In this document: positions 61,107 through 62,867 of the stretch, one piece after another
How positions within the stretch are numbered: the stretch's first letter is position 1
Layout of the letters: the number at the start of each line of letters is the position of its first letter
Position numbers and translations under genes: made by a program
The notes under the pieces: model-generated
What the model was told of the DNA's origin: nothing
Seen by the model: the letters and a program-made list of their open reading frames with translations, nothing else
Databases searched by the model: none
Assembly: GCF_003664325.1 (NCBI RefSeq)
Contig: NZ_RCDA01000001.1
Coordinates: 1,428,866 to 1,492,865, forward strand
DNA length: 64,000 bases
From: Alkalispirillum mobile
Lineage (GTDB): Bacteria > Pseudomonadota > Gammaproteobacteria > Nitrococcales > Halorhodospiraceae
Direction of reading: 5' to 3'

Positions 61107-62867
61107 ATGAGCCAGCACATCCAGTACCCCGAGAGCGGCCAGAAAATCACAGTAAAAGACGGCCGCCTTTCGGTGCCCGACAATCCCATCATCGGTTGTG
61201 TGGAAGGCGATGGCATCGGCCCCGATATCACCCGCGCCTGCCTGCGCATCTGGGATGCCGCGGTGGAGCACGCGTACAAGGGTCAGCGCAAGATCCACTG
61301 GGCCGAGCTCTACATGGGCGAGAAGGCCGCGGCCAAGTACGACGGCAACTACTTCCCCGAGGAGACCAAAGAGGCCCTCCAGGACCTGCTCATCTCCATC
61401 AAGGGCCCGCTGACCACCCCGGTCGGCGGCGGCTTCCGCTCCCTCAACGTCTCCCTGCGCCAGGAGCTGGACCTCTACGCCTGCGTGCGCCCCGTGCGCC
61501 ACTACGCCGGCGTGCCCTCGCCGCTGAAAAAACCCGAAGACGTGGACGTGGTGATCTTTCGCGAGAACACCGAGGACGTCTACGCGGGGCTGGAGTACCA
61601 GAGCGGGAGCGAGGAGAACAAAAAGCTCGCCAAGTTCCTGCGCGAGGAGATGGGCGCGGACTTCTTCGAGGACGCCGGCCTGGGCATCAAGCCGATCAGC
61701 GCCTACGGCTCCAAGCGCCTGGTGCGCAAGGCCATCCAGTACGCCATCGACAACAACCGCGAATCGGTGACCCTGGTCCACAAGGGCAACATCATGAAGT
61801 TCACCGAGGGTGCCTTCCGCACCTGGGGTTACGAGGTGGCGCGCGAGGAGTTCGGCGAGCAGACCATCACCGAGGAGGAGCTCTACTCCACCTACGGCGG
61901 CAAGCGCCCCGAGGGCAAGGTGGTCATCAAGGACCGCATCGCCGACATCATCTTCCAGCTGCTGCAGCTGCGTCCGGCCGACTTCGACGTGCTGGCCACC
62001 ATGAACCTCAACGGTGACTACCTCTCCGACGCCGCCGCGGCCGAGGTGGGGGGCATCGGCATCGCCCCGGGCGCCAACATGGCCGACCACGTCTCGGTGT
62101 TCGAGGCCACACACGGCACCGCGCCCAAGTACGCCGGCCAGGACAAGGTCAACCCCGGCTCGCTGCTGTTCTCCGGCGTCATGCTGCTGGAGCACATCGG
62201 CTGGCAGGAGGCCGCGGACCTGATCACCGCCGCCTACCAGGACGTGGTCACCGCCCGCATCGTCACCTACGACTTCGCCCGCCAGCTCGAAGGCGCCACC
62301 GAGGTCAAGACCAGCCAGTTCGCCGACGCCATCATCGACCAGATGCGCGGCAAGATTGACGTGGACAAGATCCGTCGCGAGCGCGAAGAGGCGGTGGAGC
62401 GCGAGCGCAAGGCCCGCGAGCAGCGCCGCGTGGTGGCCCCGCTGGAGGAGATGATCGCCTCCGGCCGCACCCCGCACACCGTGGGCGACCTGATGAACCC
62501 CAACCCGGTCACCGTGCCGGCGGAGACCACCGTCGAGGACGCCATGCACCTGATGCGCGAAAAGCGCATCTCCAGCGTGATCACCGAGCCGGGCAGTGAC
62601 GGCGAGTGGGGCATCATGACCCAGCGCGACGTGCTCAGCCGCATTGTCTCCAAGAACCGCACGCCCTCCACGGTGAAGGTCGAGGAGATCGCCAGCCGGC
62701 CGCTGGTCACCACCCCGGTGGACACCAGCCTGCACGACTGCGCCGAGATCATGTCGGAGTCCAACATCCGCCGCATGGTGGTCATGGACAACAACAACCA
62801 GCCGGTGGGCATCATCTCCGACACCGACATCTTCGCCAGCGTGGAGCAGTTCGGCCTGCCGGAGTAA
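61107..62867 (+). CDS. icd: NADP-type isocitrate dehydrogenase fused to a CBS-domain pair
   Basis: 586 residues. Residues 1-414 are an E. coli-type Icd: substrate and phosphorylation-site loop [11 protein letters not shown] (S112), [46 protein letters not shown], and Y388 with R392, which with K341 and Y342 mark NADP use. A highly charged linker (415-455) leads to two CBS domains (about 457-517 and 523-583), e.g. [20 protein letters not shown] and [27 protein letters not shown] pairs bind adenine nucleotides, so the tail is probably a regulatory module. GGAGG precedes ATG 61107. Confidence 0.95.

Follow-up and report, generated by a model that had tools for sequence, protein, structure and literature searches.

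An isocitrate dehydrogenase with a C-terminal pair of CBS domains, a possible built-in counterpart of AceK control at the TCA/glyoxylate branch point

In the 64,000-nucleotide stretch of Alkalispirillum mobile DNA analysed here (the window), the gene of isocitrate dehydrogenase (Icd) continues into a pair of CBS domains (a Bateman module), which raises the question of whether such a fusion is genuine and what the added module could do for the enzyme. A first reading, made from the sequence alone, had described a complete Icd, a 40-residue linker and two CBS domains in one frame, and this is borne out by an intact 586-codon open reading frame without any internal stop over window positions 61107-62867; the linker is indeed present, its length being 43 residues (415-457) and not 40. 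The features of the gene are as follows:

61096..61102, + strand: strong Shine-Dalgarno sequence AAGGAGG, read in the sequence upstream of the icd-CBS ATG
61107..62867, + strand: icd-CBS fusion gene, a single 586-codon ORF (586 aa; ATG at 61107, stop at 62865-62867)
61107..62348, + strand: NADP Icd domain of the E. coli type, residues 1-414 (NCBIfam profile, alignment with E. coli K-12)
61440..61442, + strand: Ser112, counterpart of E. coli Ser113 (alignment with E. coli K-12 Icd)
62349..62438, + strand: charged linker, residues 415-444, with a long helix predicted at 419-443
62439..62477, + strand: conserved hinge, residues 445-457 (55-fusion alignment, dN/dS)
62478..62663, + strand: CBS domain 1, residues 458-519 (Pfam, tail model, fold search)
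62610..62630, + strand: CBS1 ribose-phosphate motif, G502-I-M-T505-Q-R-D508 (55-fusion alignment)
62664..62864, + strand: CBS domain 2, residues 520-586 (Pfam, alignment, tail model, fold search)
62808..62828, + strand: CBS2 ribose-phosphate motif, G568-I-I-S571-D-T-D574 (55-fusion alignment)

The genomic setting is also as first read, next to ppc and near the pdh operon: ppc lies downstream of icd-CBS, from 63026 (NF000584 match), and aceE/aceF are found at 54675-59147, on the opposite strand. An antisense open frame of 639 residues (60993-62912, minus strand) spans the whole icd-CBS gene, and is probably a shadow frame, the coding DNA being G+C-rich.

To judge from profiles and alignment, residues 2-413 make up an NADP isocitrate dehydrogenase of the E. 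coli type, with nothing missing. Pfam Iso_dh matches residues 29-409 (E 8e-86), the equivalog profile TIGR00183 of NCBIfam covers residues 2-413 with 645.7 bits (cut-off 567.3), and the domain shares 60% identity with E. coli K-12 Icd. All 15 functional positions checked are identical to those of the E. coli enzyme (S113, N115, R119, R129, R153, Y160, K230, D283, D307, D311, K344, Y345, V351, Y391 and R395). The first reading had also pointed to the serine phosphorylated by AceK in E. coli; it is kept as Ser112, but carries no weight as a sign of AceK control, since it is kept in all 65 aligned Icds, whether AceK is present or absent. Lost AceK-recognition residues were likewise rejected as a distinguishing feature of fused Icds: a comparison covering the P-loop and the region of E. 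coli ~160-205 is non-discriminating because the whole clade shares a shortened stretch, fused or not, with AceK or without. A second isocitrate dehydrogenase is encoded in the same genome (L002:1351-2529 on C1, a 393-residue frame, NCBIfam equivalog NF006529), and could carry flux outside CBS control as a possible bypass.

Concerning the C-terminal part, a domain search identifies two CBS stretches (PF00571, 95.7 bits, cut-off 24, E 2e-27), and two stretches were found in four of the five distant fusions scanned with the same profile, and one in the fifth (L093). A frameshift or an assembly join between the two halves is ruled out, the same full-length product being present in other genomes. 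Nor is there support for an internal start that would yield a separate CBS protein, Met449 and Met463 being without a good ribosome site: the scorable icd-CBS starts (31 of 55 fusions) have a mean of 6 matching Shine-Dalgarno bases, vs. 2.1 and 2.8, respectively, for these two methionines (55 each). The fusion is therefore neither a product of chance nor a sequencing join, because tens of other genomes encode the protein from end to end, at 62-83% identity, because the two internal methionines have poor ribosome sites compared with the scorable true starts, and because dN/dS is below 1 in every part (894 non-independent pairs, with about half of the synonymous sites changed): 0.18 for Icd, 0.57 for the linker, 0.25 for the hinge, and 0.46 and 0.45 for the CBS domains, which evolve faster than Icd (0.45 vs. 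0.18).

The fusion is widespread and not peculiar to this genome, as a survey of Icd homologues indicates. It is present in full length in 32 of the 59 near genomes (A. mobile included) and in pieces or shortened in five others (G031, G045, G041, G004 and G020), while 13 genomes with a match from genus g10, of the same order, have a different, unfused Icd (59-62% identical). Of 369 genomes sampled from the class, 262 carry an Icd (E<=1e-100), which in 22 cases is a full fusion. The tail status was taken from the match table for 150 of these 262; no CBS tail was found in 80 of the other 112, which were re-examined (the match in G262 and G336 ending before residue 330), and the remaining 32 were judged by score (~500-515 bits vs. 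827 for the weakest full fusion). Named genomes, other phyla included, were screened with a sequence pattern that detects close relatives only, and the tail was found in 37 loci, all with gamma- or proteobacterial titles, including Halorhodospira, Nitrococcus, Aquisalimonas, Alkalilimnicola, Arhodomonas and Methylonatrum, as well as Thiotrichaceae, Competibacteraceae and Stagnimonas MAGs. As for the phylum, 132 of 398 genomes drawn have a match at E<=1e-60, with CBS fusions only in G000 and G013.

In two cases icd-CBS is split over three open frames, namely in L058 (~4742-6507, a record titled Alkalilimnicola ehrlichii AK92) and in G020:C66:39606-41361, which may reflect either assembly errors or a decaying gene. 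Long Icd frames in family f210 were considered as further CBS fusions and rejected, those fetched having a different tail. Indeed, 18 of the 20 Icds fetched from f210, f243 and f230 (L174-L193) extend ~165 residues past the dehydrogenase, 17 of them from f210 and one from f243, the tail being absent in L190 and L193 (f230). The two tails scanned match PF07295, the DUF1451 zinc-ribbon domain, and this is apparently a second, independent fusion at the Icd C-terminus.

The fusion is real, old and conserved with both its ligand motifs, and it occurs in genomes that mostly possess isocitrate lyase and hardly ever AceK. In A. mobile itself, isocitrate lyase and malate synthase G are present, whereas the search for aceK, which the first reading had left to be made, gave no match in the 99.7%-complete genome, the E. 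coli control being positive; AceK control of this Icd is thus rejected. In the class sample, under a strict rule chosen after the output was seen (best PF00463 match <1e-24, or at least three matches with the best <1e-17), isocitrate lyase is found in 20/22 fused vs. 75/239 unfused genomes (Fisher, 5e-8). Weaker single PF00463 matches, one of which is in the A. mobile genome, look like methylisocitrate lyase. Among lyase-positive genomes, AceK is present in 1/20 fused vs. 44/75 unfused (p 9e-6); when all Icd genomes are counted, lyase-positive or not, significance is lost (1/22 vs. 46/239, p 0.14). With families as units, AceK is found in 1/14 vs. 27/51 (p 0.002), and within the 52-row Icd clade, the proportions are 1/20 fused vs. 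5/10 unfused for AceK among lyase-positive genomes (p 0.009) and 20/22 vs. 10/19 for lyase (p 0.012), shared ancestry being incompletely removed by either procedure. The exceptions on the fused side are G265, which combines fusion, lyase and a divergent AceK (E 1e-59), and G272 (82% complete) and G085, in which no isocitrate lyase was detected.

A separate search of 49 near genomes detected AceK in 13/13 members of g10 and in 0/36 elsewhere; these 36 comprise 29 full and five partial fusions, so that AceK is found in 0/34 CBS-bearing genomes. All 49 have a match to the lyase family, and the strict rule is passed by 48, all but G041. In 11 of the 13 g10 genomes (G018, G021, G024, G026, G028, G030, G032, G044, G046, G048 and G051), and also in G319, G209 and G346, aceK directly follows icd on the same strand, in the place where fused genes have the CBS pair. 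In g10, the type of Icd and the way it is controlled seem to have been exchanged as a unit.

A tree of 64 Icds, built on the dehydrogenase part only and including 12 outgroup Icds, unites all 33 fused rows and 12 unfused ones in a clade (100/97) that excludes the remaining unfused rows and the outgroup. Five changes of fusion state suffice and, with this root, the simplest reading would be one gain followed by four losses, a gene tree being compatible with other histories as well. One loss group has six rows, five with aceK (G319, G209, G247, G346 and G201) and one without (G104); another has four (G279, G378, G163 and G058, the last 62% complete), none with isocitrate lyase by the strict rule. 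The single losers G229 and G066 are lyase-positive without aceK and fit neither pattern. In L103 (G229), ~21 linker residues are retained before the Icd stop, which fits the loss of a tail, while nothing convincing was found as a CBS remnant behind the Icd stop of unfused members in 18 loci. Tree-aware independent pairs numbered four usable ones, too few to reach significance.

What the CBS pair might sense was approached through its conservation and fold. Both domains carry G-h-h-T/S-x-x-D, the ribose-phosphate motif of adenine-nucleotide-binding CBS pairs. Among 55 distinct fusions, T505 and D508 of CBS1 are invariant and G502 is kept in 52; in CBS2, G568 and S/T571 are invariant and D574 is kept in 54. 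R556 of CBS2 is also found in all 55, and the other CBS positions are mostly variable. The most conserved part of the tail is the hinge ahead of CBS1, with P445, M449, G453, R454 and P456 in 55/55. Helices are predicted at 419-443 and 445-452 from the full-length and tail models, according to which the linker is not a loose tether. The full-length model is weak in its Icd part (mean pLDDT 70), and the tail was modelled alone (pLDDT 88.7) because the best 50 rows of the fold search with the full-length model were isocitrate dehydrogenase chains only. The best fold match of the tail is CBS-CP12 (5npl_A, Z 17.0, 127 aligned residues, rmsd 2.2); others include CBS pairs with AMP (2rif, 4gqy and 9s52) or ADP (AcuB 9s4x) and pairs solved with ATP, as well as complexes with SAM, ATP plus ppGpp, Ap4A and Mg-ATP.

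From the motif conservation, the structured linker and the fold matches, we infer an adenylate-responsive module acting through the hinge on the Icd dimer, and we lean towards regarding the protein as an NADP Icd whose C-terminal Bateman module would be a built-in adenylate-sensing switch, doing AceK's job at the TCA/glyoxylate branch point. An adenine nucleotide, namely AMP or ADP as opposed to ATP, would be bound by the CBS pair in those clefts that contain T505/D508 and S571/D574, and this would alter the packing of the two CBS pairs in the Icd dimer, a change that the 415-457 helix and the invariant PLEEM...GRxP hinge would pass on to the Icd active site. When the energy charge is low, Icd would be active and the TCA cycle would burn the carbon; when it is high, with acetate or fatty acids as substrate, Icd would be damped and isocitrate would go to isocitrate lyase, one-chain allostery replacing what AceK phosphorylation does in E. 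coli. The direction of control assumed here takes AceK regulation in E. coli as its model and is the least certain step. The sequence-only reading had suggested nucleotide control of this kind, an idea that gains support from the motifs, the AMP, ADP and ATP fold matches and the presence of lyase without AceK, while a direct response to energy charge would be a further step.

The pair could also regulate Icd while sensing NAD(P)H, S-adenosylmethionine, ppGpp, Ap4A, Mg-ATP or ionic strength, which we consider rather unlikely. The SAM, ATP plus ppGpp, Ap4A and Mg-ATP complexes among the fold matches are in line with such ligands; the full ribose-phosphate motif of both sites speaks against them, though SAM or other adenosine ligands would need this motif too. 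For ionic strength, hosts titled Halorhodospira, Aquisalimonas and Alkalilimnicola, genera of halophilic or alkaliphilic life, agree with the idea, but fusions are also found under Thiotrichaceae and Competibacteraceae MAG titles. That the CBS pair serves chiefly in assembly (higher oligomers, filaments or partner docking) and is no metabolite switch is improbable: its nearest solved relative, CBS-CP12, is titled hexameric and the hinge before CBS1 is the best conserved stretch of the tail, but assembly neither requires the near-invariant ligand-motif residues nor predicts the link with isocitrate lyase and AceK. More improbable still is a passenger fusion of little effect, inherited in one clade and with an AceK/lyase pattern due to shared ancestry and ecology, for which the single origin on the simplest tree reading, a paired test without power, the faster evolution of the CBS domains and four losses (the tail being dispensable in some lineages) can be cited, against motifs kept across 62-83% overall identity and an association that holds both with families as units and within the fusion's Icd clade.

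An adenylate switch on Icd can be compared with several known systems. The E. coli Icd/AceK pair involves the same enzyme family (60% identity, TIGR00183) and the same branch point, and in both systems a lowered Icd activity would leave isocitrate to isocitrate lyase; however, the E. coli enzyme stops at residue 416 and depends on a separate kinase for its switching, whereas the A. mobile Icd has a fused CBS pair in a genome without AceK. The cyanobacterial CBS-CP12 (5nmu, 5npl and 5nvd) is, among solved CBS pairs, the closest both in sequence (E 9e-15) and in fold, but there the CBS pair is fused to the Calvin-cycle regulator CP12, which is not an enzyme. In IMP dehydrogenase, the CBS pair is inserted within the barrel, whereas in Icd-CBS it follows the C-terminus of a TCA-cycle enzyme, and its ligand is a predicted one. 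To our knowledge, an energy sensor fused to a TCA-cycle enzyme is unusual. IMP dehydrogenase and cystathionine beta-synthase likewise combine a metabolic enzyme and a Bateman module in one chain, with control by a nucleotide or SAM as indicated in the available parts of PMC4660370 and PMC10995199. Mycobacterial ICD also partitions isocitrate without AceK or phosphorylation, through an effector acting on ICD, but this effector is glyoxylate made by isocitrate lyase, and no CBS domain is mentioned in the available part of the source (PMC4999502), which also reports aceK as essential for E. coli growth on acetate. A C-terminal extension of ~100 residues occurs on the subfamily IV isocitrate dehydrogenases of Thermus and Rickettsia, which belong to another subfamily and whose extension is described, in the part available, as clasp-like and not as a CBS pair (PMC3521221). 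In the unfused Icd PaIDH1, 82-89% of the activity is reported, in the portion available, to be left with 2 mM ATP, ADP or AMP (PMC10574006). The first reading had held an Icd regulated in this way to be undescribed, a claim that stands for the open-access literature only, where no description of an Icd-CBS fusion was found among the matches listed; domain databases may well show the architecture. CBS-regulated enzymes are already known; Icd would be a new carrier enzyme among them, with a proposed role as an alternative to AceK.

More tentatively, Icd-CBS might be a second evolved solution at the branch point, contained in a single chain, adenylate-gated and replacing AceK across many gammaproteobacterial families, with lineages trading one for the other; the trading pattern is read from losses of the CBS tail in lineages that have aceK or have given up the glyoxylate shunt. 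Icd-AceK is the textbook case of bacterial phosphorylation control, yet 50 of the 95 lyase-positive Icd genomes are without AceK and, if the proposal is true, CBS gating would account for control in 19 of these 50.

The 31 lyase-positive genomes with neither fusion nor AceK indicate that other control is common. In ten lyase-positive genomes without AceK and without a CBS tail (G064, G092, G178, G194, G232, G260, G306, G338, G362 and G402), icd adjoins the isocitrate lyase gene, perhaps another means of balancing the branch point.
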